Of a DNA stretch of 64,000 bases, positions 10,955-23,800 are shown one piece after another. Made by a program: the position numbers and the translations under genes. The first letter of the stretch is position 1. Every line of letters begins with the position of its first letter. Source of the DNA: Pseudomonas fluorescens (GTDB lineage: Bacteria > Pseudomonadota > Gammaproteobacteria > Pseudomonadales > Pseudomonadaceae). The notes beneath the pieces were generated by a model. It was not told where the DNA came from and searched no databases. It worked only from the letters and a program-made list of their open reading frames with translations. The stretch is from the NCBI RefSeq assembly GCF_002022275.1, contig NZ_MSDF01000017.1:62001-126000 (forward strand), read 5' to 3'.

Positions 10955-11012
10955 CCTATAGCGAGATAGCCTGCACAAAACCCTATAACTTCGTTTGGAA
11001 AGGATGTTTCTT

Positions 11013-11531
11013 ATGAAGCGCTTGTTCTGTTTGGCTGCGATTGCGGCCGTAGTGGTGGGACACTCGGTTTCGGCCCAGGCCGCTGGCCTGGAATTGGGTG
11101 TGGGGAGCACCAGCGATTCGACCCTGACTTATCGTCTGGGGCTGACATCGGACTGGGACAAAAGCTGGTGGCAGAGCGATACGGGCCGGTTGACCGGTTA
11201 CTGGAGCGGCGCCTACACCTACTGGGACGGTGACAAGCGCGCGGGCGCCAGCAGCCTGTCGTTCTCGCCGGTGTTTGTGTATGAGTTTGCCGGGCAGTCG
11301 GTGAAGCCCTACATCGAGGCCGGTATCGGTGTGGCGGTGTTTTCGCGTACACGCCTTGAAGACAACAACATCGGCCAGGCCTTCCAGTTCGAAGACCGCT
11401 TGGGCTTTGGCCTGCGCTTTGCCGGTGGGCATGAAGTGGGGATTCGCGCGACGCATTATTCCAACGCGGGGATCAGCAGTAACAACGACGGGGTAGAAAG
11501 TTACTCGTTGCACTACACCTTGCCGCTGTAA
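11013..11531 (+). CDS. pagL: Lipid A deacylase, PagL family
   Basis: PagL is an outer membrane beta-barrel lipase that removes the 3-O acyl chain of lipid A. The 172-residue precursor has a signal peptide (cut likely after AQA, residue 23) and a PagL-type barrel. The predicted catalytic triad is His148, Ser150 and Glu162 in THYSNAG...GVES; the H-S-E spacing (2 and 14) equals that of characterised PagL. The ATG at 11013 follows a GGAAAGG ribosome binding site; an upstream in-frame start would add six residues with no better site. It lies in the PA4661 position, between murI and the photolyase cluster. Confidence 0.88.
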   Translation: MKRLFCLAAIAAVVVGHSVSAQAAGLELGVGSTSDSTLTYRLGLTSDWDKSWWQSDTGRLTGYWSGAYTYWDGDKRAGASSLSFSPVFVYEFAGQSVKPYIEAGIGVAVFSRTRLEDNNIGQAFQFEDRLGFGLRFAGGHEVGIRATHYSNAGISSNNDGVESYSLHYTLPL

Positions 11532-11665: not shown

Positions 11666-11971
11666 TCAGCGATAGGCCGTCGCAATGCCTTCACGCTCGG
11701 TCAGACATTCCGGCGCACCCATCTCGAACTCCCGGCAAATCAGCGGCCGTCGCTCATAAATCGTGCACATCATCGTGTCCCGATCCAGCGCCGCACACCA
11801 GCCGTCATCCAGGCGCAGCATCACTTCGCCGCCCCAATCGTCGGTATCGATATAGCGCTCCGGCACGCCAGTGTCGGTGATCAGCATCACTTCCAGCTGG
11901 CAGCAACAGGCCGCGCACGTCGAGCAGGTCACGGCGGGTTCGGGAATCTCGGTGAGAGGGATGTTTGTCAT
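11666..11971 (-). CDS. YkgJ-family cysteine cluster protein
   Basis: The 101-residue protein is rich in cysteines arranged as CSTCAACCC near residues 16-24, then MCTIY...RPLIC and PEC towards the C-terminus. This is the YkgJ-type putative zinc/iron-chelating cluster (UPF0153). The biochemical function of the family is unknown. It lies 54 bases downstream of the DUF2878 gene in the same direction and may be read from the same operon. Confidence 0.85.
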   Translation of the reverse strand: MTNIPLTEIPEPAVTCSTCAACCCQLEVMLITDTGVPERYIDTDDWGGEVMLRLDDGWCAALDRDTMMCTIYERRPLICREFEMGAPECLTEREGIATAYR

Positions 11972-12025
11972 AGGCGCGCAGTGTAAGGCAAGCGCGTTGT
12001 GCGCGTATGAATGCTCTGACGGACG

Positions 12026-12517
12026 TCAGTGCCCCAGTTGCCGGGCGATCCAGTGCAGCAGCGGAAACAGCAGGGCCCACAGCAGCGCCAGCCCGATCAG
12101 GGTGGGCGCCGTGCCGTAGCCGAAACTCACCCCGGCCAGTTGGCTGCCCGCGTAGTAAGACAGCGGCCCGCCCACTGCGCCCAACAGGCTGGCACGCCAC
12201 CAGGGCTGTGCGCTCCAGGCCAGGCAGTGGCGCAATGTGGTCGCGAGCAACGCCCACAGCAACACCAGCCAAAAAGGAATCAGGGGCCCTGGAAAGCTGA
12301 AATGAAACACGCCAAAGGTACGCAACGAGGTGTCGACCACCGTGCCCAGCAGGGTCACGGCGAGGATCACTTGCCCCTCGGCCGACCACGCACTTATCCA
12401 CAGCAGGTGGATAGCCAGCACCGCCAACCCCACCAGCAGCCAGCGGCTGTCACCGCCGAGCACGCAGGCAAACCAGCCGCACTGGAACAGCACGGCGTTC
12501 GCCAACGGTTTAAGCAC
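12026..12517 (-). CDS. DUF2878 membrane protein
   Basis: The 163-residue protein is strongly hydrophobic with about five membrane segments, fits the DUF2878 family, and has no recognisable catalytic motif. It is the last gene of a nine-gene minus-strand run; its start overlaps the end of the Cfa-like gene by 8 bases. Family members are commonly found beside cfa and DUF1365 genes, so a role in the same lipid modification or in membrane handling is likely by context only. Confidence 0.8.
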   Translation of the reverse strand: MLKPLANAVLFQCGWFACVLGGDSRWLLVGLAVLAIHLLWISAWSAEGQVILAVTLLGTVVDTSLRTFGVFHFSFPGPLIPFWLVLLWALLATTLRHCLAWSAQPWWRASLLGAVGGPLSYYAGSQLAGVSFGYGTAPTLIGLALLWALLFPLLHWIARQLGH

Positions 12518-13781
12518 TGAAGCGCCCGAGCAACGGCGGGTTCATCGCCGCCGGCTTGGCCAGCAGCAACTGCGCGGTGCCGATCGTCCGTTCCATGAAT
12601 CCCCCTTCGCAGTAGCACAAGTAGAATTCCCACAAGCGCAGGAAGTACTCATCGTAGCCCAGCTCGGCGAGACGACTATGGGCGCGGCGAAAGTTCTCGT
12701 GCCACAGGCGCAGGGTTTTCGCATAGTGCAGGCCGAAGTCTTCCATGTGCAGCAGGTTCATGTCGGTGTCGCGGCTGACAATCTGCAGCATGTTTTGCAC
12801 ACACGGCAGGGCGCCACCGGGGAAAATGTAACGCTGGATAAAGTCGACGCTGTTTTTGGCTTGTTCGAAGCGTTGCTCACGAATGGTGATGGCTTGCAGC
12901 AGCATCAGGCCGTCGCGCTTGAGCAACTGCGCGCACTGTTTGAAGTAGGTTGGCAGGAAACGATGGCCCACCGCTTCAATCATTTCGATGGACACCAGCT
13001 TGTCGTACTCGCCGGTGAGGTCACGATAATCCTGCAACAACAGAGTGACCTGGCCTTGCAGCCCCAGCGCCTCGATGCGTTTTTCGGTGTAGGCGAACTG
13101 CTCTTTGGACAGCGTCGTGGTGGTGACCTTGCAGCCGTACTGCTGCGCCGCGTACAACGCCATGCTGCCCCAACCGGTGCCGATTTCCAGCAGATGGTCA
13201 GTGGGCTTGAGCGCGAGCTTTTGGCAGATGCGTTCCAGCTTGTTCAATTGCGCCTGTTCCAGGCTGTCGTCGGGCGTCAGAAATTGCGCCGCCGAATACA
13301 TCATGGTCGGGTCGAGAAACTCCTCGAACAGGTCGTTGCCCAGGTCATAGTGAGCAGCGATGTTTTTCTGCGAGCCTTTGCGCGTGTTGCGATTAAGCCA
13401 GTGCAGGCCCTGGGTGAACGGGCGTGCCAGGCGCGCGAGGCCGCCTTCCATCGCATCGAGCACGTCCAGGTTGCTGACCATCACGCGCACCACGGCGGTC
13501 AGGTCCGGGCTGCTCCAGTAACCGTGGATAAACGCTTCGCCCGCGCCGATCGAACCATTGGCCGCCACCAGGCCCCACACCGCCGAATCCAGGATCTGGA
13601 TTTCCCCCAGCAGGTGCGCTTCGCGGGCACCGAAGACCTGGCGCTCGCCGTCCTCAATCACCACGAGTTGACCGTGACGCAACTGGCTGAGTTGACGCAG
13701 CACGGCCTTGCGCAGCAGCGTGGTGGTCAGGCCGTTGACGTTCAGGCGGTTGGCCTTGACCGATAAGCTAGGGGTTTTCAT
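12510..13781 (-). CDS. Cyclopropane-fatty-acid-synthase-like SAM methyltransferase (UfaM/CfaA type)
   Basis: The 423-residue protein is a Cfa-family SAM-dependent methyltransferase acting on phospholipid acyl chains. It has the HYDLGNDLFEEFLDP signature near residues 144-158, the SAM motif LLEIGTGWGSMALYAA and a C-terminal CYCEGGFMERTIG segment. The active-site Cys of true cyclopropane synthases (Cys139 in E. coli, in YSCA) is replaced by Ala164 in MMYSAAQF. That fits an enzyme that methylates without ring closure, such as UfaM of furan fatty acid synthesis; this is inference. ATG at 13781 is chosen because it gives the normal Cfa N-terminus. It overlaps DUF1365 upstream by 14 bases. Confidence 0.88.
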   Translation of the reverse strand: MKTPSLSVKANRLNVNGLTTTLLRKAVLRQLSQLRHGQLVVIEDGERQVFGAREAHLLGEIQILDSAVWGLVAANGSIGAGEAFIHGYWSSPDLTAVVRVMVSNLDVLDAMEGGLARLARPFTQGLHWLNRNTRKGSQKNIAAHYDLGNDLFEEFLDPTMMYSAAQFLTPDDSLEQAQLNKLERICQKLALKPTDHLLEIGTGWGSMALYAAQQYGCKVTTTTLSKEQFAYTEKRIEALGLQGQVTLLLQDYRDLTGEYDKLVSIEMIEAVGHRFLPTYFKQCAQLLKRDGLMLLQAITIREQRFEQAKNSVDFIQRYIFPGGALPCVQNMLQIVSRDTDMNLLHMEDFGLHYAKTLRLWHENFRRAHSRLAELGYDEYFLRLWEFYLCYCEGGFMERTIGTAQLLLAKPAAMNPPLLGRFSA

Positions 13782-14577
13782 GGCGGCGATCCTTGGTATA
13801 CCCGACTGCGGTGCGAGAGGCGCCATCGGCGGCCCTGTGGGAAAAAATCGGTGTGCGTTTGAGCAGCAGGCGCATGGCCTGCCAGTAAATCGCGAGGCAC
13901 GTCTTGGCGGTCATCCACGGAAAACGCCACAGGTAGCGATGCAGGGTGGCGCGGTTCAGCGCTTCCCTTTGCAGGCTCAAGGTGGCGTCGAAGACTTTGT
14001 GCGCACCTTGCCAATCGGCCATGTGCACGCCGAGTTTGGCGGCGGGTGGGCTGAAGCTCATGCGGTATTCGAGGTCGCGCGGCAAAAACGGCGACACATG
14101 AAAAGCCTTGGCTACGGCGAAATGCTGATGCTCATCCGCGCCAAGGGCCTGGGCCGGCAGCACGTAGTGATAACGCTCACGCCACGGGGTGTTCGTCACT
14201 TCACACAGGATCGCCGCCAGACTGCCGTCGGCCTCGAAGCAGTAGAAGAAACTCACCGGATTAAAAGCCAGGCCCCAACTGCGGGCCTGGGTCAGTAGGC
14301 AGATAACGCCCTGGGGCGTACGCCCCAGCGCCTTGCCGACTTCCTGGCGCACGGCATCGGTCAAGCTCATGCCGTGGCGCGTCAATTCACGCAGGTAATC
14401 CTGCTGGCGAAAACCAAAGGGTGCCAGGCGACTTGCGCCGGCCAATGGCGACAGGCCGAGCACTTCGTCCTGTTCGCTCAAATCCAGGTACAGCAGGCCG
14501 ATGCGGTAGCGAAAGGCGTGGGCCTTGGGCGAGAACCGGCGATGGGCAATCCAGCCGCTGTACAGGGCGCTGTTCAC
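13768..14577 (-). CDS. DUF1365 protein
   Basis: The 269-residue protein begins with GTG at 14577 (VNSALYSGWIAHRRF), matching the usual DUF1365 N-terminus, and contains the NPVSFFYCF segment typical of the family. The GTG overlaps the TGA of the upstream FAD oxidoreductase (GTGA), a sign of translational coupling. DUF1365 genes almost always sit between an FAD oxidoreductase and a Cfa-like gene, so a role in modifying membrane fatty acids is widely assumed; the reaction is not known to me. Confidence 0.88.
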   Translation of the reverse strand: MNSALYSGWIAHRRFSPKAHAFRYRIGLLYLDLSEQDEVLGLSPLAGASRLAPFGFRQQDYLRELTRHGMSLTDAVRQEVGKALGRTPQGVICLLTQARSWGLAFNPVSFFYCFEADGSLAAILCEVTNTPWRERYHYVLPAQALGADEHQHFAVAKAFHVSPFLPRDLEYRMSFSPPAAKLGVHMADWQGAHKVFDATLSLQREALNRATLHRYLWRFPWMTAKTCLAIYWQAMRLLLKRTPIFSHRAADGASRTAVGYTKDRRHENP

Positions 14578-15821
14578 AGGGTTTCCCCAAAAGCCTGGGC
14601 CACACGCAGGGCGCTGACTACACCGTCTTCGTGAAAACCATTGGCCCAGTAAGCACCGCAATAAAAGGTATGGCGCGTGCCGTGCAATTCTTCCCAGCGG
14701 TTCTGCGCCGCCACCGCCGCGAGGCTGTATTGCGGATGGGCGTAGGTGTAGCGCGCGAGAATTTTCAGCGGGTTGATCATTGGCGTCTGGTTGAGGCTGA
14801 CGCAAAAGGTGGTGGCGCTGTCGATGCCTTGCAGGATGTTCATGTCGTAGGTGACGGCAGCCTGGGTTTGCGCCTTGCCGATCAGCCGGTAATTCCAGCT
14901 GGCCCAGGCCAGTTTGCGGTCGGGCAGCAGGCGGGTGTCGGTGTGCAGCACCACGTCGTTGTCGGCGTAGGGCAGGGCGCCGAGGATCTGCTGTTCAGCC
15001 GCACTCGGGTCGCCGAGCAAGGCCAGCGCCTGGTCGCTGTGGCAGGCGAACACCACTTTGTCGAAGGCTTCGGTGCCGGCGGCGCTGTGAATCACCACGC
15101 CCTCGGCGTCGCGCTCGACCAGATGCACCGGGCAATTGAGGCGAACCTGTTTGTGAAAGCTGCGGGTCAGCGGTTCGATGTAGCTACTCGACCCGCCCTC
15201 GATCACGCACCATTGCGGCCGGTTGTTCACCGACAACAAACCGTGGTTTTTGAAGAAACGCACGAAGAATTGCAGCGGAAAACCGAGCATGTCCTTAAGC
15301 GACATCGACCAGATCGCCGCGCCCATCGGCACGATGTAATGCCGGATAAACCGCTCGCCGTAGCCGCCGGCTTCGAGGTAATCGCCCAGGGTCATCTCGG
15401 CGCTGATGCGTTGTTCCTGCAAGTCCAGCGGCGCCTGGCGGTTGAAGCGCAAAATGTCGCGCAACATGCCCCAGAACCCCGGCGACAGAATATTGCGACG
15501 CTGGGCGAACAGGCTGTTGAGGTTATTGCCGTTGTATTCGAACCCTGCGTTCTGGTCGCACACCGAAAAGCTCATTTCGGTGGGTTTGAAGGCCACGCCA
15601 ATCTGCCCCAGCAGGCGAATGAAATTGGGGTAGGTCCAATCGTTGAACACGATAAAGCCGGTATCCACCGCATAGCTTTTGCTGTCGACGGTCACGTTGA
15701 CCGTATGGGTGTGCCCGCCGATGCGGTCACCCGCTTCGAACAGCGTGATCTCATGCTGGCGGCTGAGCAGATAGGCGCTGGTCAGCCCGGCGATGCCGCT
15801 GCCGATAATGGCGATCTTCAC
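14574..15821 (-). CDS. FAD/NAD(P)-binding amine-oxidase-like protein
   Basis: The 415-residue protein starts with the dinucleotide-binding motif IAIIGSGIAGLTSAYLLS (residues 3-20), followed by ExGDRIGGHTHT, the pattern of flavin amine oxidases and phytoene-desaturase-like enzymes. It lies between an SDR (ATGA overlap at its start) and DUF1365 (GTGA overlap at its end). In bacteria with furan fatty acids a flavoprotein desaturase acts after the Cfa-like methylase, and this gene is the natural candidate here; the substrate is inferred from context. Confidence 0.87.
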   Translation of the reverse strand: MKIAIIGSGIAGLTSAYLLSRQHEITLFEAGDRIGGHTHTVNVTVDSKSYAVDTGFIVFNDWTYPNFIRLLGQIGVAFKPTEMSFSVCDQNAGFEYNGNNLNSLFAQRRNILSPGFWGMLRDILRFNRQAPLDLQEQRISAEMTLGDYLEAGGYGERFIRHYIVPMGAAIWSMSLKDMLGFPLQFFVRFFKNHGLLSVNNRPQWCVIEGGSSSYIEPLTRSFHKQVRLNCPVHLVERDAEGVVIHSAAGTEAFDKVVFACHSDQALALLGDPSAAEQQILGALPYADNDVVLHTDTRLLPDRKLAWASWNYRLIGKAQTQAAVTYDMNILQGIDSATTFCVSLNQTPMINPLKILARYTYAHPQYSLAAVAAQNRWEELHGTRHTFYCGAYWANGFHEDGVVSALRVAQAFGETL

Positions 15822-16600
15822 AGGTTGTCCTTGTGCGGCGGCGGGCTGCGTAGCATGCGTTTGCCGATGATCAATTGCGCACGGTTAGGCAGCTTCGACA
15901 GCGGCCACAGGGTGGCGATGAACAGGGCCGGGAAGGCAATTTCCAGTGGGCGTTTTTCCAGCTTGGCGAAGATATGCCGTGCCGCTTTGTCGGCAGACCA
16001 GCTCAGGGGCATCGGGAAGTCATTGCGTTCAGTCAGTGGTGTGTCGACAAACCCCGGGCTGATCACCGTGACGTCAATATTCTCCGGCGACAGGCTGATG
16101 CGCAGGGATTCAAACAGGTAACGCAGCCCGGCCTTGGACGCGCCATAAGCTTCGGCGCGCGGCATCGGCAAGTAGGTGACGGCACTGGCCACGCCCACCA
16201 GGTGCGGCGTGTGCCCGGCACGCAACAACGGCAGCGCAGCTTCAATGCAGTAACTGCTGGCGAGCAGGTTGGTGCGCACCACGTGCTCGACGATCGAGGC
16301 ATCGAATTGCTTGGCGTCGACGTATTCACAGGTGCCGGCGTTCAGAATCACCGTGTCCACCGAGCCCCAGACCACGCCGATATGCTCGCCGATTTCGCGC
16401 ACGGTCTGGCTATTGGTCAAGTCGCCCGCCACCACCAGCACTTGCCCGGGGTACCTGTGGGCGAGGGCTTCCAGCGGGCCCTTGGTGCGTGAGCTCAGCG
16501 CCACATGGGCGCCGCTGTTGAGCAATTCCACGGCCAGAGACGCGCCGATGCCACTGCTGGCGCCGGTCAGCCAATAACGGCGGGGAGGTGTACTGCTCAT
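15818..16600 (-). CDS. Short-chain dehydrogenase/reductase
   Basis: The 260-residue SDR has the cofactor motif TGASSGIG near residues 11-18 and the catalytic Y-x3-K as YGASK near residue 154, with the NAG motif (LNAGTC) near residue 88. Its start overlaps the stop of the NTF2-like gene (ATGA) and its stop overlaps the FAD oxidoreductase start (ATGA). An in-frame upstream Met is ignored because it would lengthen the overlap. The substrate is unknown; the genomic partners suggest a lipid or isoprenoid. Confidence 0.88.
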   Translation of the reverse strand: MSSTPPRRYWLTGASSGIGASLAVELLNSGAHVALSSRTKGPLEALAHRYPGQVLVVAGDLTNSQTVREIGEHIGVVWGSVDTVILNAGTCEYVDAKQFDASIVEHVVRTNLLASSYCIEAALPLLRAGHTPHLVGVASAVTYLPMPRAEAYGASKAGLRYLFESLRISLSPENIDVTVISPGFVDTPLTERNDFPMPLSWSADKAARHIFAKLEKRPLEIAFPALFIATLWPLSKLPNRAQLIIGKRMLRSPPPHKDNL

Positions 16601-17019
16601 CCCATTCTCCTTTTCAACCAACTGATGACTCGGCCGAGGACCGGCAGGTGTTCATAGAGCAAGGCACCGGCATCGAAATAGTCGCGATGGCGGTAGACCT
16701 TGTCGCGCCACATCAGGTGCGAGCAGCCTTCCACCCGGATCACGTTTCCATTGGCCAGACGCGGGTGGCAAAAGCTCATTTTCCAGCGCAGGTAGCCTTC
16801 ACCTTCGGCCACTTGGTCGAAGCCGTGAAAGTCGAAGCGCAACTGGCTGACGTTGCTGTACAGCTCGGTAAAGTAGTGGTGCATTGCGGGCAGGCCGTGG
16901 ACTTCGTGCAGCGGGTCGGCGAAGGCAATGTCCTTGCTGTACAAACTGTCGAGCAGGTGCAGGTTGTGCTTGTCCAGCGTGGAGAAGGCCTGGGCAAACC
17001 GGCGCAGGAAGTCACTCAT
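16597..17019 (-). CDS. NTF2-like (SnoaL-type) protein
   Basis: The 140-residue protein has the alpha+beta cone features of nuclear-transport-factor-2-like proteins: an N-terminal helix (DFLRRFAQAFSTLD), then FADPLHEVHG and HHYFTELY, ending in a conserved YRHRDYFDAG segment. Such folds can be small isomerases or ligand binders. No catalytic set is certain. It overlaps the phr stop by 8 bases and the SDR start by 4, so it is firmly part of the photolyase operon. Confidence 0.85.
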   Translation of the reverse strand: MSDFLRRFAQAFSTLDKHNLHLLDSLYSKDIAFADPLHEVHGLPAMHHYFTELYSNVSQLRFDFHGFDQVAEGEGYLRWKMSFCHPRLANGNVIRVEGCSHLMWRDKVYRHRDYFDAGALLYEHLPVLGRVISWLKRRMG

Positions 17020-18457
17020 GCACACCCCCGACCGCTTCACGGGAAGGCAGGCTGCGGAAGGCTGCCAGCGCACGTTCGCGGGACTTCTTCAAATCGACGA
17101 TTGCGCGGGGGTAGTCCGCCACGCCAAACAGTCCGCCGACCGCCTCGGGGTTGTGCACTTCCTTTTTATTCAGCGCCGCCAGTTCCGGCAGCCAGTGCTT
17201 GATAAAAACGCCTTCGCCATCGAATTTCTCCGACTGGCTCAGTGGGCTGAAAATCCTGAAATACGGCGCCGAGTCCGTGCCGGTGGACGAGCTCCACTGC
17301 CAGCCGCCGTTGTTGGCGGCCAGGTCGCCGTCGATCAAGTGGCGCATGAAAAAGCGCTCGCCTTCGCGCCAGTCGATCAGCAGGTTTTTGGTCAGGAACA
17401 TCGCCACCACCATGCGCAGGCGGTTATGCATCCAGCCAGTTTCGAGAAGTTGGCGCATGGCCGCATCAATGATCGGCAAACCGGTGCGCGCTTCCTGCCA
17501 GGCGGCCAGATCCTTTGGCGCATTGCGCCAGGCCACGGCTTCTGTCTCGGGGCGGAACGCGCGGTGGCGGGACACCCGTGGGTAGCCCACCAGAATGTGT
17601 TTGTAGAACTCGCGCCACAGCAGTTCGTTGATCCAGGTGATGGCGCCCATGTCGCCACTTTCGAATTCGCCGCCGTTGGTTTGCAGCGCGGCGTGCAGGC
17701 ATTGGCGTGGCGACACCACCCCGGCAGCGAGGTAGGCCGACAGCTGGCTGGTGCCGGGCTTGGCCGGGAAGTCGCGTTCGTCCTTGTAGTAGCTGATCTG
17801 CTGGTCGGCGAAGGCGTCGAGGCGGCGACGGGCTTCGTCTTCACCGGCCGGCCAGAGCGCGCGCAGGGTTTCGCTCGGTGGCTCGAAGCCTTCGACGGTA
17901 TTCGGGATCGGGTCGCTTTTCAGCTCAATCGGCGCCTGGGCTTTGGGAGCCGCCACTGTGCGCGGCAAGGCGCTGTGCAAGCGGGTGTAGCAGACTTTGC
18001 GGAACTGGCTGAAGACCTGAAAGTAGGTGCCGGTCTTGGTCAGCACGCTGCCGGGTTGGAAGAACAGTTGGTCAAGGTAGCTGTGGAAAGTGACGCCGTC
18101 AGCTTCAAGGGCTTTGGCCACGGCCGCGTCGCGACGGCTCTCGTGGATGCCGTATTCCTCGTTGACGTGTACCGATTCCACCGCCAGTTCCCGGCACAGT
18201 TTGCCCAGTTCATCCGGCACGTCGTCCCAGGTCGGGGCCGTGCGGATCAGCAGGGGAATATTCAGTTCGCCAAGCGTGTGGCGCAGGCTTTCCAGGTTGC
18301 GCAGCCAGAAGTCGACTTTGCACGGCGCGTCATCGTGGGCCAGCCATTGCTCGGGCGTTATCAGGAAAACAGCGGCGACCGGGCCCCGCTGGCTCGCGGC
18401 GGTCAGGGCGGTGTTGTCGTGCAGGCGCAGGTCGGTGCGCAGCCAGATCAAGTGCAT
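17012..18457 (-). CDS. phrB: Deoxyribodipyrimidine photolyase
   Basis: The 481-residue class I CPD photolyase uses blue light and FADH- to split cyclobutane pyrimidine dimers in DNA. It has the N-terminal antenna domain (MHLIWLRTDLRLHDN) and the C-terminal FAD-binding domain with TGLPIIDAAMRQL, WMHNRLRM and the NNGGWQWSSSTGTD motif (roughly residues 325-400) that carries flavin-binding and electron-transfer residues. The start ATG immediately follows the stop of the MerR regulator. Light control through that regulator is likely. It lies in the PA4660 position. Confidence 0.95.
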   Translation of the reverse strand: MHLIWLRTDLRLHDNTALTAASQRGPVAAVFLITPEQWLAHDDAPCKVDFWLRNLESLRHTLGELNIPLLIRTAPTWDDVPDELGKLCRELAVESVHVNEEYGIHESRRDAAVAKALEADGVTFHSYLDQLFFQPGSVLTKTGTYFQVFSQFRKVCYTRLHSALPRTVAAPKAQAPIELKSDPIPNTVEGFEPPSETLRALWPAGEDEARRRLDAFADQQISYYKDERDFPAKPGTSQLSAYLAAGVVSPRQCLHAALQTNGGEFESGDMGAITWINELLWREFYKHILVGYPRVSRHRAFRPETEAVAWRNAPKDLAAWQEARTGLPIIDAAMRQLLETGWMHNRLRMVVAMFLTKNLLIDWREGERFFMRHLIDGDLAANNGGWQWSSSTGTDSAPYFRIFSPLSQSEKFDGEGVFIKHWLPELAALNKKEVHNPEAVGGLFGVADYPRAIVDLKKSRERALAAFRSLPSREAVGGVHE

Positions 18458-19387
18458 TTAAACGATTCCACGCTGGATCAGTATCTGGTGGGCCGACAAG
18501 GGGTCTTCGGCCACGAACAATTCAGGGGTGTCACGGGTTAATACGGCTAACTCGGCCTGGTGGATGCATACCGTTGGTCCGGCAATCAGAATTGGGCAAC
18601 GGATGCCACCCAGAAGTTTGGGGATTGCCGACAAATGGAGGGACTTGCTCGAATACAGCAGCACGGCGCGCGGTTGCAGGTGTTCAACCGCCAGGGCGAG
18701 TTCGCCGGTCGGCAGCGGCCAGTCGAACACTTCCACCGGGCAATCGGCACTGCTGGCCAGCCAGGCGCTGAGCCACAGGTGCGGTTCCAGCGGCAAATCG
18801 GAATGGTTGACTAATAGCAGCGGCGCGCCGTGCAGTTGCCGGTTGTTGTGGTAAATGCGCGCGCCGAATTTGCTGCGCAGCCATGAGAGGAAAAACACCC
18901 GCTCCATCTGTGCGCCGAACTGGCCCTGCCAGCGTTGCTCCAGCTCCTGAAGCAGCGGCAACAGCAGTTGCTCGCACAACGTGCGCGGCGGGTACAGCGC
19001 CATGGCCTGGTTAACCGCATCATCGACTCGGCGCTCGGCCAGCTCGCTGATCGCATTGATCAGGTTCTGGCGCAGCGCGTGCCATTCGTTTTCCACGCTG
19101 TCGGGGCTGGTCTGGGCAGAATCAATCAGGTTTTTGACTTGGCTGACCGGTACGCCACGGTTGAGCCAGGTAAGGATGGTGTGGATGCGTTGCACATGTT
19201 CGGCGCTGAACAGCCGATGGCCCTTGGGCGTGCGCTGGGGCACGATCAGGCCGTAACGGCGCTCCCATGCGCGCAAGGTCACGGCGTTGACGCCGGTCTG
19301 GCGCGCGACTTCGCGAATCGGCAACCAGCCATCTTCAAGGGCTTGGGCGATGTCTTCGCCGGGTTCGTCTTGCAGGGCAGGCTTCAT
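18458..19387 (-). CDS. MerR-family regulator, LitR/CarH-like without B12 motifs
   Basis: The 309-residue protein has an N-terminal MerR winged helix (LPIREVARQTGVNAVTLRAW then GHRLFSAEHV, residues 22-75), a middle helical region, and a C-terminal Rossmann-like domain resembling cobalamin-binding domains. The B12 base-off motif DxHxxG is absent, and the W-x9-EH capping motif is degraded (W-x8-ER). This fits class II LitR regulators, which do not bind B12 and repress photolyase and lipid genes in the dark in P. putida. It lies between the DUF523-DUF1722 gene (3-base gap) and phr (no gap). It probably binds the TGTACA-N12-TGTACA sites upstream of the operon. Confidence 0.88.
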   Translation of the reverse strand: MKPALQDEPGEDIAQALEDGWLPIREVARQTGVNAVTLRAWERRYGLIVPQRTPKGHRLFSAEHVQRIHTILTWLNRGVPVSQVKNLIDSAQTSPDSVENEWHALRQNLINAISELAERRVDDAVNQAMALYPPRTLCEQLLLPLLQELEQRWQGQFGAQMERVFFLSWLRSKFGARIYHNNRQLHGAPLLLVNHSDLPLEPHLWLSAWLASSADCPVEVFDWPLPTGELALAVEHLQPRAVLLYSSKSLHLSAIPKLLGGIRCPILIAGPTVCIHQAELAVLTRDTPELFVAEDPLSAHQILIQRGIV

Positions 19388-19390
19388 AGG

Positions 19391-20350
19391 TTAGATCGCA
19401 TTACGCAGGCTGAGGTTTTCCGGGTGCGGCTGCAGGTAGGCCTGTTGCGCGATGTAGCGGTCCGGATGTTGGCGAAAGTGATGCTTGAGCAAGGTCAGCG
19501 GCACCACCAGTGGCACGATGCCGTGGCGGTATTGGCCGATCACGGTTTGCATTTCCTGCTTGTCGTCGGTGCTGATGGCTTGCTTGAGATAGCCGCTGAT
19601 GTGTTGCAACACGTTGGTGTGAGTGCCACGGGTGGCGCATTTTTTCAGGCCGGTCATCAGGTCGCTGAAGTAGCCGGCGGCCAGTTCATCCAGGTTGATG
19701 CCCTTGCCCATGCTTCCCAGCAGATGGCCAAGGCTTTTGTAGTGCACTGGACTGTGGGCCATCAACAGGTATTTGTAGCGCGAATGAAAGGCCAGCAGGC
19801 GGTGGCGGGTCAGGCCTTCGGCCAGCAATGTTTGCCAACTGGCGTAGACGAAAACCCGGGTCAGGAAATTTTCCCGCAACACCGGGTCGTTCAGGCGACC
19901 GTCCTCTTCCACCGGCAGGTTGGGGTGGCGCGCGCAAAAGGCCTGGGCGTAAATGCCTCGACCTCCGCCGTCGACCGGCGTGCCGTTTTCGCGGTAGACC
20001 TTGACCCGTTCCAAACCGCACGACGGCGACTTTTGCATAAAGATGTAACCGCACAAGTCGGTGTGTTCCGCCGCCATTTGCTGGCCGTAGTCGTCCAGCG
20101 GCTGGGTGACGTTGAGTTCGCGGTTCACGGTGCCAATTGCCTGCGGGTGAGCGGGGTCGCCCACCAGGCGGATCGGCTCACGCGGGATGCCCAGGCCAAT
20201 GGCAACCTCAGGGCACAGCGGCACGAAGTCGAAATAATCGGCGAGGGTCTGGCTGCACAGCAGGGATTGTTTGTGCCCGCCGTTGAAGCGCACGTTCTCG
20301 CCCAATAGGCAGGCGCTGATGGCGATCTTCGGTTTCACGGTGCTGGACAT
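19391..20350 (-). CDS. DUF523-DUF1722 fusion protein (TudS/RudS-type desulfidase, YbgA-like)
   Basis: The 319-residue protein joins an N-terminal DUF523 domain (residues 8-155) and a C-terminal DUF1722 domain (about 190-310). The three cysteines that hold the [4Fe-4S] cluster in TudS-type thiouracil desulfidases are present at Cys14 (ISACLLG), Cys46 (PLCPE) and Cys111 (SPSCG). Proteins with this architecture are linked to removal of sulfur from tRNA 4-thiouridine. In E. coli the related ybgA gene is next to phr. It is the first gene of the nine-gene run, and its promoter region carries two LitR-type operators. Confidence 0.88.
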   Translation of the reverse strand: MSSTVKPKIAISACLLGENVRFNGGHKQSLLCSQTLADYFDFVPLCPEVAIGLGIPREPIRLVGDPAHPQAIGTVNRELNVTQPLDDYGQQMAAEHTDLCGYIFMQKSPSCGLERVKVYRENGTPVDGGGRGIYAQAFCARHPNLPVEEDGRLNDPVLRENFLTRVFVYASWQTLLAEGLTRHRLLAFHSRYKYLLMAHSPVHYKSLGHLLGSMGKGINLDELAAGYFSDLMTGLKKCATRGTHTNVLQHISGYLKQAISTDDKQEMQTVIGQYRHGIVPLVVPLTLLKHHFRQHPDRYIAQQAYLQPHPENLSLRNAI

Positions 20351-20372
20351 GGCCGAACCTCTGCAAGATTCC

Positions 20373-20396
20373 TGTACAAGCCTTAAAACTTGTACA
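20373..20396 (-). promoter_or_regulatory. Predicted LitR-type operator, proximal (TGTACA-N12-TGTACA)
   Basis: TGTACA at 20373-20378 and 20391-20396 are separated by exactly 12 bases. The site lies just downstream of the predicted transcription start and 22 bases before the ybgA-like start codon, where a bound repressor would block elongation or initiation. Confidence 0.7.
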
Positions 20397-20406
20397 ACTA
20401 AACCTC

Positions 20407-20434
20407 ATCATAGGTTTGATGCTGTACAAGTCAA
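20407..20434 (-). promoter_or_regulatory. Predicted sigma-70 promoter of the photolyase operon
   Basis: On the minus strand TTGACT (20434-20429) and TATGAT (20412-20407) are separated by 16 bases, close to consensus. The start point would be near 20400. The -35 box lies inside the distal TGTACA operator. Confidence 0.6.
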
Positions 20435-20446
20435 ATATTTTGTACA
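20423..20446 (-). promoter_or_regulatory. Predicted LitR-type operator, distal (TGTACA-N12-TGTACA)
   Basis: TGTACA at 20423-20428 and 20441-20446 again have a 12-base spacer. The -35 box is in the spacer. The repeat of the same spacing within 50 bases makes chance unlikely. Confidence 0.7.
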
Positions 20447-20462
20447 AGTATTTTCGGTGCCG

Positions 20463-21691
<1,229 letters not shown>

Positions 21692-21710
21692 CTACGCCGA
21701 CACCAATAGC

Positions 21711-21734
21711 TGTACAATATTGTTTTTTGGTATA
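21711..21734 (-). promoter_or_regulatory. Predicted LitR-type operator upstream of renalase-like gene
   Basis: Read on the minus strand it is TATACC-N12-TGTACA, one base from the T(G/A)TACA-N12-TGTACA pattern seen in front of the photolyase operon. A possible promoter on that strand is TTGTAC (21717-21712) with TAGTCT (21694-21689) at 17-base spacing. The site is also about 130 bases upstream of the divergent epimerase-hemH genes and could affect both directions. Confidence 0.5.
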
Positions 21735-21860
21735 AGTTTTGGCGTACCTGTTCTAACGGCGTGGCCTATGGTTAAACGACAGGCCACGCCCGATTACAAA
21801 TGATCCCTGCTTATAAAATAGACTAACGGCGGGCGGCGAACGTTACATGAGGAGGATCCC

Positions 21861-22760
21861 ATGCACATTTTGCTGACCGGCGGTACGGGTCTGATTGGCC
21901 GCAAGCTTTGCCTGCACTGGCTCGCCCAGGGCCATCGCTTGACCGTGTGGAGTCGTGAGCCGGACACCGTGGCTCACTGGTGCGGTGCTGACGTGCTCGG
22001 CGTCGGGCGGTTGCAGGATGTGATCGGCCATGTGGATGCGGTGGTCAACCTTGCCGGCGCGCCCATCGCCGATCGTCCCTGGACCAAAAAGCGCAAGGCG
22101 TTGTTGTGGAGCAGCCGCATCAGCCTCACCGAAACCTTGCTGGCGTGGATCGAAAGCCAGGAACAAAAGCCATCGGTATTGATTTCCGGTTCCGCCGTAG
22201 GCTGGTACGGCGACGGCGGCGAGCGCGAATTGACCGAAGCGAGCGGCCCGGTGCAAGACGATTTCCCCAGCCAACTGTGCATCGCCTGGGAAGAAACCGC
22301 CCTGCGCGCCGAAGCGTTGGGTGTGCGGGTGGTGCTGGTGCGCACGGGCCTGGTGCTGGCGGCCAAGGGCGGCTTTTTGTCGCGCATGCTGCTGCCGTTC
22401 AAACTGGGGTTGGGCGGGCCTATCGGCAATGGTCGGCAGTGGATGCCGTGGGTGCATATCAAGGATCAAATCGCCCTGATTGATTTTCTTCTGCACAAGT
22501 CCGACGCCAGCGGTCCTTATAATGCGTGCGCGCCACACCCGGTGCGCAACAGCGAGTTCGCCAAGACTCTGGGCAAGGTCTTGCACCGTCCTTCCTTTAT
22601 GCCACTGCCGGCGTTTGCCTTGAAGGTCGGGTTGGGCGAATTGTCCGGGTTGTTACTGGGCGGGCAAAAGGCGGTGCCTGAACGGCTGCTGGCCGCCGGT
22701 TTCACTTTTCAGTTCACTGAGTTGCACGCGGCTTTGGAAGACTTGTCCAGCCGCCTCTAG
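21861..22760 (+). CDS. TIGR01777 family NAD-dependent epimerase/dehydratase-like protein
   Basis: The 299-residue protein has the Rossmann motif [14 protein letters not shown] (residues 3-16), the TIGR01777 segment [13 protein letters not shown], and [10 protein letters not shown] in the catalytic region. Family members (E. coli YfcH, plant SULA-type) have no firmly established substrate. A good AGGAGG site precedes the ATG. It is followed after 14 bases by hemH, and lies divergent to the renalase-like operon, so it may be part of the same stress block. Confidence 0.88.
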
Positions 22761-22774
22761 AAATAGGATGTTGC

Positions 22775-23800
22775 ATGACGGATCACGCGTTGTTACTGGT
22801 CAACCTGGGCTCACCGGCGTCCACCTCGGTGGCCGATGTGCGCAGCTACCTCAATCAGTTTCTGATGGACCCTTATGTGATCGACCTGCCATGGCCGGTG
22901 CGGCGCTTGCTGGTGTCGCTGATCCTGATCAAGCGCCCCGAGCAGTCGGCGCATGCCTACGCGTCGATCTGGTGGGAAGAGGGTTCGCCGCTGGTGGTGC
23001 TCAGCCGCCGCTTGCAACAGCAAATGACTGCGCAGTGGACCCAGGGCCCGGTGGAACTGGCGATGCGTTATGGCGAGCCGTCGCTTGAAACGACCCTCAC
23101 GCGCCTCGCGGCCCAAGGCATTCAAAAGGTCACCCTGGCGCCGTTGTATCCGCAGTTTGCCGACAGCACCGTGACCACGGTGATTGAGGAAGCCAAACGG
23201 GTGGTGCGCGACAAAAAGCTCAACGTGCAATTCTCGATCCTGCAGCCGTTTTACGATCAGCCGGAATACCTCGATGCGCTGGTGGAGAGTGCCAGGCCTT
23301 ATGTGGCGCAGGATTTCGATCACCTGCTGCTGAGTTTCCACGGCTTGCCCGAACGCCATCTGACCAAGCTCGACCCGACAGGCCAGCACTGTTTCAAGGA
23401 TGCGGACTGCTGCAAGAACGCCTCGCCGCAAGTGCTTGCCACCTGCTACCGCGCGCAATGCTTCAGCGTGGCGCGGGAATTTGCCGCACGCATGGGGCTG
23501 CCGGAAGGTAAGTGGTCGGTGGCGTTCCAGTCGCGCCTGGGCCGGGCGAAGTGGATCGAACCCTACACCGAGGCGCGCCTTGAAGCACTGGCTCAGCAAG
23601 GCGTGAAAAAGCTGCTGGTGATGTGCCCGGCGTTTGTCGCCGATTGCATCGAGACGCTGGAGGAGATCGGTGATCGCGGGCTGGAGCAGTTCCGTGAAGC
23701 GGGGGGCGAGGAGTTGGTGCTGGTGCCGTGCCTTAATGATGATCCGCAGTGGGCGGCGGCGCTGAATACCCTGTGCGAGCGGGCGCCGTTGGCGCTGTAA
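22775..23800 (+). CDS. hemH: Ferrochelatase
   Basis: HemH inserts Fe2+ into protoporphyrin IX, the last step of protohaem synthesis. The 341-residue protein has the catalytic His in [10 protein letters not shown] near residue 192, the HCFKDADCC segment, and the family C-terminal [14 protein letters not shown] motif. It follows a TIGR01777 gene by 14 bases. Its nearness to photolyase and lipid genes is notable because protoporphyrin, its substrate, is itself a photosensitiser. Confidence 0.96.

Follow-up and report, generated by a model that had tools for sequence, protein, structure and literature searches.

The DNA analyzed here, referred to as the window, is a stretch of 64,000 nucleotides from Pseudomonas fluorescens (contig NZ_MSDF01000017.1, positions 62,001 to 126,000). 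Between positions 12026 and 20350 it carries nine open reading frames (ORFs) on the minus strand, each of which scored above the curated cut-off for its named Pfam family. In order of transcription they are:

19391..20350, minus strand: rudS, a RudS-type fusion of DUF523 (2-thiour_desulf) and DUF1722, by family a tRNA 4-thiouridine desulfidase (PF04463, 1.8e-36; PF08349, 1.4e-42)
18458..19387, minus strand: litR, a class II LitR/CarH-like MerR regulator (MerR and B12-binding_2 domains only)
17012..18457, minus strand: phr, a class I deoxyribodipyrimidine photolyase (NF007955, 538 bits; cut-off 506)
16597..17019, minus strand: an NTF2-like/SnoaL_2 protein (Pfam match)
15818..16600, minus strand: a short-chain dehydrogenase/reductase (SDR), relative of RSP_1087 (Pfam match and comparison with Cereibacter johrii)
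14574..15821, minus strand: by homology, a UfaD-like flavin adenine dinucleotide (FAD)-dependent acyl desaturase (39.6% identity over 414 amino acids to C. johrii)
13768..14577, minus strand: a UfaO-like DUF1365 protein, putatively inserting the furan-ring oxygen (32.0% over 231 amino acids to C. johrii)
12510..13781, minus strand: a UfaM-like (Cfa-related) putative S-adenosylmethionine-dependent acyl methyltransferase (39.2% over 406 amino acids to C. johrii)
12026..12517, minus strand: a hydrophobic DUF2878 protein (PF11086, 1.1e-42)

The number, order, strand, families and junctions of these genes had been given in a preliminary description made from the sequence alone, and all were borne out by the Pfam matches and recomputed start codons. 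The NTF2-like and SDR genes overlapped by 4 bases at an ATGA, and the SDR/FAD and FAD/DUF1365 junctions were GTGA overlaps of 4 bases each. Longer overlaps were found at the phr/NTF2 and Cfa/DUF2878 junctions (8 bases each) and at the DUF1365/Cfa junction (14 bases). The wording "fully overlapping" held for these six of the eight junctions and not for rudS/litR, with a gap of 3 bases, or litR/phr, with a gap of 0. Both the hallmark of RudS, a 2-thiouracil desulfurase domain fused to DUF1722, and the gene order expected of a light operon, nine genes that run from a RudS-type gene to DUF2878 and touch or overlap at their junctions, were found.

Upstream of rudS the following control elements were identified:

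20407..20434, minus strand: sigma-70-like promoter, TTGACT-16-TATGAT (the one site of a consensus scan)
20423..20446, minus strand: LitR box 1, a perfect TGTACA-N12-TGTACA lying over the -35 hexamer (consensus match)
20373..20396, minus strand: LitR box 2, also perfect, between the promoter and the rudS start codon (consensus match)

Boxes of the form T(G/A)TACA-N12-TGTA(C/T)A over the promoter are expected of a Pseudomonas light operon controlled by LitR and LOV. When up to two mismatches were allowed, the window held 7 boxes compared to 1.19 expected, a number reached in 0 of 100 shuffles. A LitR gene next to a gene for a short LOV protein is likewise expected with such an operon; this pair was identified elsewhere in the genome, where a second LitR (37% identical to that of the operon) is encoded divergently from the LOV gene. 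The best solved-structure matches of this LOV protein were short bacterial sensory-box proteins (E 1.3e-87), and no other match in the genome was comparably strong; four further matches were weaker (E 3.2e-10 or worse) and lay in open frames of 649-1319 amino acids. The Cys of the LOV motif is visible in the protein sequence. The LOV gene and the second litR are separated by a 201-amino-acid ORF without a Pfam family (L018:794-1399).

The closest published counterpart is found in Pseudomonas mendocina. According to Maruyama et al. 2022 (PMC9758184), the nine genes PME6650-PME6610 are likely one light-induced polycistron, for which translational overlaps were noted. Light induced phrB 26.7- to 33.2-fold and ufaM 25.0- to 33.2-fold, LitR (PmlR2) acts as the repressor, and LOV relieves the repression when illuminated. 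Of the two sites at the P. mendocina promoter, Site 1 overlaps the -35 region and Site 2 is downstream of the transcription start but upstream of the start codon (PMC9758184); the two perfect boxes of the window are arranged in the same way. The pmlR1 region of P. mendocina NBRC 14162 also shares with this locus the nine genes, with LitR, phrB, SDR, FAD oxidoreductase and ufaM among them, the double LitR boxes around the promoter, and a LOV-controlled second LitR elsewhere, so that pmlR1, pmlR2 and one LOV have their equivalents here (PMC9758184); the comparison was based on the number of genes, the members named and the layout of the promoter. In the PplR/PpSB-LOV regulon of Pseudomonas putida KT2440, pplR1, phrB and ufaM are likewise light-induced under LitR and LOV (PMC9758184), but three LitR and two LOV proteins are present there, compared to two LitR and one short LOV here.

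With a probability of about 0.92, we read the locus as the Pseudomonas light operon rudS-litR-phr-ntf2-sdr-ufaD-ufaO-ufaM-DUF2878, switched by LitR and LOV and combining DNA repair, tRNA demodification and furan lipid formation. The gene order and its conservation, the families, the boxes, the promoter match and the LOV/LitR pair are present in the sequence, while light induction, the LitR-LOV switch and the RudS and Ufa reactions were demonstrated in relatives and by analogy would hold in this strain. The idea of one compact light-type operon in which photolyase is combined with a tRNA desulfidase and lipid genes was sound, the same nine-gene unit being light-induced in P. mendocina (PMC9758184). 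The operon is already described, and the present locus is its occurrence in another genome, not a new system. In the dark, the class II LitR repressor would occupy both boxes, one over the sigma-70 promoter and one just downstream of it; in blue light, the short LOV protein encoded beside the second LitR would remove the repressor from the DNA, allowing transcription of the whole unit. Photolyase would then repair ultraviolet (UV) dimers in DNA, and RudS would remove 4-thiouridine, a near-UV-crosslinking base, from tRNA. Acyl chains of phospholipids would be methylated by UfaM, desaturated by UfaD and oxidized by UfaO, giving a furan fatty acid as a scavenger of singlet oxygen, with the NTF2-like, SDR and DUF2878 proteins as probable lipid-side accessories.

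Comparison of gene neighbourhoods was in agreement with this reading. DUF1365 was found in 92 of 299 sampled Pseudomonadota genomes, including the present one, and the other 91 neighbourhoods were compared. Homologs were searched with the window proteins only, using a 40-bit floor except for DUF2878 and DUF1365, and were counted on the same strand within 1500 bases; every locus was chosen by DUF1365. The identical nine genes in the same order were found in L093-L098. A box at rudS was present in 5/5 of the same-genus neighbourhoods L093-L097, with two perfect boxes in four of them and one in L094. Across the 91 neighbourhoods, 8/10 clusters containing litR had a box at the first gene compared to 3/81 without litR. 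The genes ufaD and ufaO were adjacent in 88/91 neighbourhoods, ufaO and ufaM in 74/91, and ufaM and DUF2878 in 26/91. Among the other members, phr occurred in 30/91, rudS in 17 (16 with phr), litR in 10 (all with phr), SDR in 51, NTF2 in 37 (36 with SDR) and DUF3833 in 23. DUF2878 was found in 74/99 same-genus genomes.

Several observations speak against the light-operon reading. The promoter consensus scan of positions 11900-21900 gave a single site (20434-20407), and as shuffled sequence yielded 1.7 +/- 1.5 such sites, the match is weak by itself and no better than chance. This site starts at 20434, exactly where the preliminary description, which proposed a single promoter, ended its unit. 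Genome-wide, 20 LitR boxes with up to one mismatch were found compared to 11 for the reversed pattern, only an approximately twofold difference. No box was detected in the scanned region of L052 and L101 (2/10 litR clusters), though litR is present in both. The identity of UfaO to its C. johrii counterpart is only 32%, and for this reason the same chemistry is presumed. In addition, the neighbourhoods come from related genomes and are not independent trials.

The repair and tRNA members have published precedents. RudS strips tRNA of its 4-thiouridine, and its gene is found together with those of PhrB and LitR in one operon under LitR control (PMC11417400). The described RudS has, like the protein predicted here from sequence, a TudS desulfidase domain plus DUF1722, and occurs in light operons with phr and LitR, so the suggestion of tRNA demodification was already in print (PMC11417400). 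A MerR-phr operon is induced by blue light in Vibrio cholerae (PMC5241685). The photolyase of the window was 32.8% identical to that of C. johrii over 458 amino acids.

For the NTF2-like and SDR genes, the question is which half of the operon they belong to. Neighbourhoods lacking phr made up 21/37 of those with NTF2, 36/51 of those with SDR and 13/26 of those with DUF2878; since they often occur without phr, the NTF2-like and SDR genes look like lipid-side genes. It is unlikely that both belong with photolyase in the repair half, although ntf2 directly followed phr in 16/91 neighbourhoods and rudS was accompanied by NTF2 in 16/17, which counts against a clean split between repair and lipid genes. 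The absence of phr in most of the NTF2 and SDR neighbourhoods argues against such a placement, with the reservation that all of these were chosen by DUF1365 and phr-ntf2 loci without ufa genes were unsampled. Neither the NTF2-phr nor the SDR-phr association was significant in either direction in the 91 neighbourhoods (Fisher p 0.11 and 0.50). Two genomes of the same family have clusters that lack phr and carry a perfect LitR box directly at ntf2 (L099:7539, L100:13201), which indicates that LitR can control the lipid half by itself.

The lipid genes are related to the furan fatty acid pathway of Rhodobacter sphaeroides, in which UfaM methylates, UfaD desaturates and UfaO, a DUF1365 protein, is required for O2-derived furan formation (PMC7380195). 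R. sphaeroides itself was absent from the loci compared, which came from C. johrii, a species close to it; the C. johrii loci were reached via a 100% identical reaction-centre protein. They contain a row of ufaD, ufaO, a 401-amino-acid ORF, DUF3833 (186 amino acids) and SDR (245 amino acids), whereas ufaM adjoins phr elsewhere. The DUF3833 and SDR lengths are those published for RSP1088 and RSP1087 (PMC7380195). Genes for UfaM, UfaD and UfaO are all present in the window and match relatives of the proven enzymes, and we infer that the FAD-DUF1365-Cfa genes correspond to UfaD-UfaO-UfaM. By this correspondence DUF1365, listed in the preliminary description among four members without an assigned reaction, does have one, and the FAD and Cfa-like genes also have published steps (PMC7380195). 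For NTF2-like, SDR and DUF2878 the earlier statement stood, none having been found. A profile search of the PDB with DUF1365 gave a best match of only E 0.41, so that no protein of solved structure was recognizable as a relative from sequence.

The R. sphaeroides RpoE core regulon (RSP_1091-1087; phrA-ufaM, RSP_2143-2144) shares with the operon relatives of UfaD, UfaO, UfaM, SDR, DUF3833 and photolyase, and UfaD, UfaO and UfaM are proven enzymes there (PMC7380195). It differs in being under sigma-E/ChrR control, in being split over two loci, and in the transporter RSP_1089, which is not in this operon. RSP_1089 was considered as a second Cfa-like gene and rejected, being annotated as a sugar/cation symporter. 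RSP_1087, 1088, 1090, 1091, 2143 and 2144 have been paired with Pseudomonas syringae genes, five of the six in PSPTO_1123-1115 (PMC5507510). RSP_1090 mutants are sensitive to singlet oxygen (PMC3818230 and PMC7074977, the sources also of gene annotations).

That the Cfa-like gene encodes an ordinary cyclopropane synthase, with cyclopropane fatty acids as the product of the lipid part, is very improbable. The protein matches CMAS (2.1e-89) and Cfa models, but it scored under every Cfa equivalog cut-off (290/400, 285/600 and 246/650 bits), and an ordinary Cfa was rejected on these scores. A better CMAS match is encoded on another contig, C15 (360.9 vs 301.5 bits). Furthermore, the gene lies next to the ufaD-ufaO pair, and its C. 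johrii match is the gene beside phr.

Control of the operon by coenzyme B12 photochemistry in its own LitR, as in CarH or class I LitR, instead of by LOV is hardly credible. The operon LitR does match B12-binding_2 (5.8e-08) and, weakly, the NCBIfam CarH model (79.7 bits; cut-off 400), yet no second B12-binding domain as in class I proteins was detected at E up to 0.001. B12 was not needed for the light response of P. putida, whereas LOV was (PMC9758184), and a LitR-LOV pair is encoded in the present genome; B12 photosensing was rejected on the single domain and on the P. putida result. Least probable of all is mainly a singlet-oxygen regulon under an extracytoplasmic function (ECF) sigma factor and ChrR, as in R. 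sphaeroides and P. syringae, with light acting only indirectly: the lipid genes and phr are related to the RpoE core regulon, but LitR boxes flank the promoter, and the one ChrR anti-sigma factor match genome-wide was partial and far under the cut-off (39.8 bits vs 124.5), on which ground sigma-E/ChrR control was rejected.

Returning to the lipid-side accessories of the LitR/LOV operon, literature searches found no reaction for the NTF2-like and DUF2878 proteins, which does not prove that none has been published, and DUF2878 gave no match at E 1 in a profile search of the PDB. The NTF2-like, DUF2878, RudS and LitR proteins had no match in the two C. johrii loci, the only ones searched. The NTF2-like family (36 sequences) keeps Y27, D35, W79, D113 and D116, and its profile reached limonene epoxide hydrolase 5aif (E 6.4e-08), steroid isomerases and SnoaL-like proteins. 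Catalysis by limonene-1,2-epoxide hydrolase uses an Arg-x-Asp pair and a second Asp. The second Asp (D113 in RDYFD) was invariant in the 36 sequences, while the Arg and Asp positions aligned to K80 and S82, a residue comparison that depends on the same remote alignment. As the Arg-x-Asp pair is not kept, identity as a true limonene epoxide hydrolase was not supported. The SDR is generic by sequence and 34.6% identical to the C. johrii SDR over 237 amino acids. In R. sphaeroides, deletions of RSP1087, 1088 and 1089 caused no detectable change, and the RSP1087 SDR is dispensable for furan fatty acid synthesis (PMC7380195). Tentatively, the NTF2-like and SDR proteins may be an accessory pair acting on the oxidized acyl chain, and together with DUF2878 and the DUF3833 lipoprotein, whose gene has a LitR box, might provide a light-controlled cycle of furan-lipid maintenance, not just synthesis. 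UfaO would produce an epoxide or dihydrofuran intermediate, which the NTF2-like protein would guide; the SDR would either reduce or oxidize this intermediate or remove the ene-dione that remains once the furan has been destroyed by singlet oxygen.

A second predicted LitR unit lies upstream of the operon:

21711..21734, minus strand: LitR-type box with one mismatch, TGTACA-N12-GGTATA when read on the plus strand, 49 bases upstream of the following gene
20675..21661, minus strand: FAD-dependent oxidoreductase, first gene of the unit predicted from the box
20463..20678, minus strand: TIGR02450/DUF2389 Trp-rich small protein, with an ATGA overlap with the oxidoreductase gene

A box preceded this oxidoreductase gene in 4/4 same-genus loci where the gene was found. 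Exact boxes made up 4 of the 20 genome-wide, two at rudS and one each on contigs C40 and C63. The one on C40 precedes a DUF3833 lipoprotein gene by 49 bases (L019:5500-6100, G000:C40), a relative of which is part of the R. sphaeroides ufa operon; the one at C63:66583 lies within ORFs of both strands and was taken as chance. The oxidoreductase/TIGR02450 pair and the unlinked lipoprotein gene would be small additions as two predicted extra targets. Downstream of the operon, a 101-amino-acid CxxCxxCC gene (11666-11971) lies on the same strand, 54 bases after the DUF2878 gene, and was present in 4/5 same-genus neighbourhoods (not L094). By its strand and position it may be a tenth member, making the operon longer than nine genes. 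A PagL lipid A deacylase gene (10995-11531) is convergent with this downstream end. Close to the light genes, a ferrochelatase gene occupies 22775-23800 on the plus strand; porphyrins are photosensitizers, and through them it may be tied to the light genes.

The locus places this genome in the well-supported blue-light response of Pseudomonas and corrects three genes that had been read as unassigned. If the accessory role of the NTF2-like and SDR proteins is true, it would explain why SDR, and in gammaproteobacteria the NTF2-like gene, is kept beside the furan genes though the SDR is unneeded in R. sphaeroides, and would provide a way of testing how lipids consumed by singlet oxygen are recycled in bacteria.

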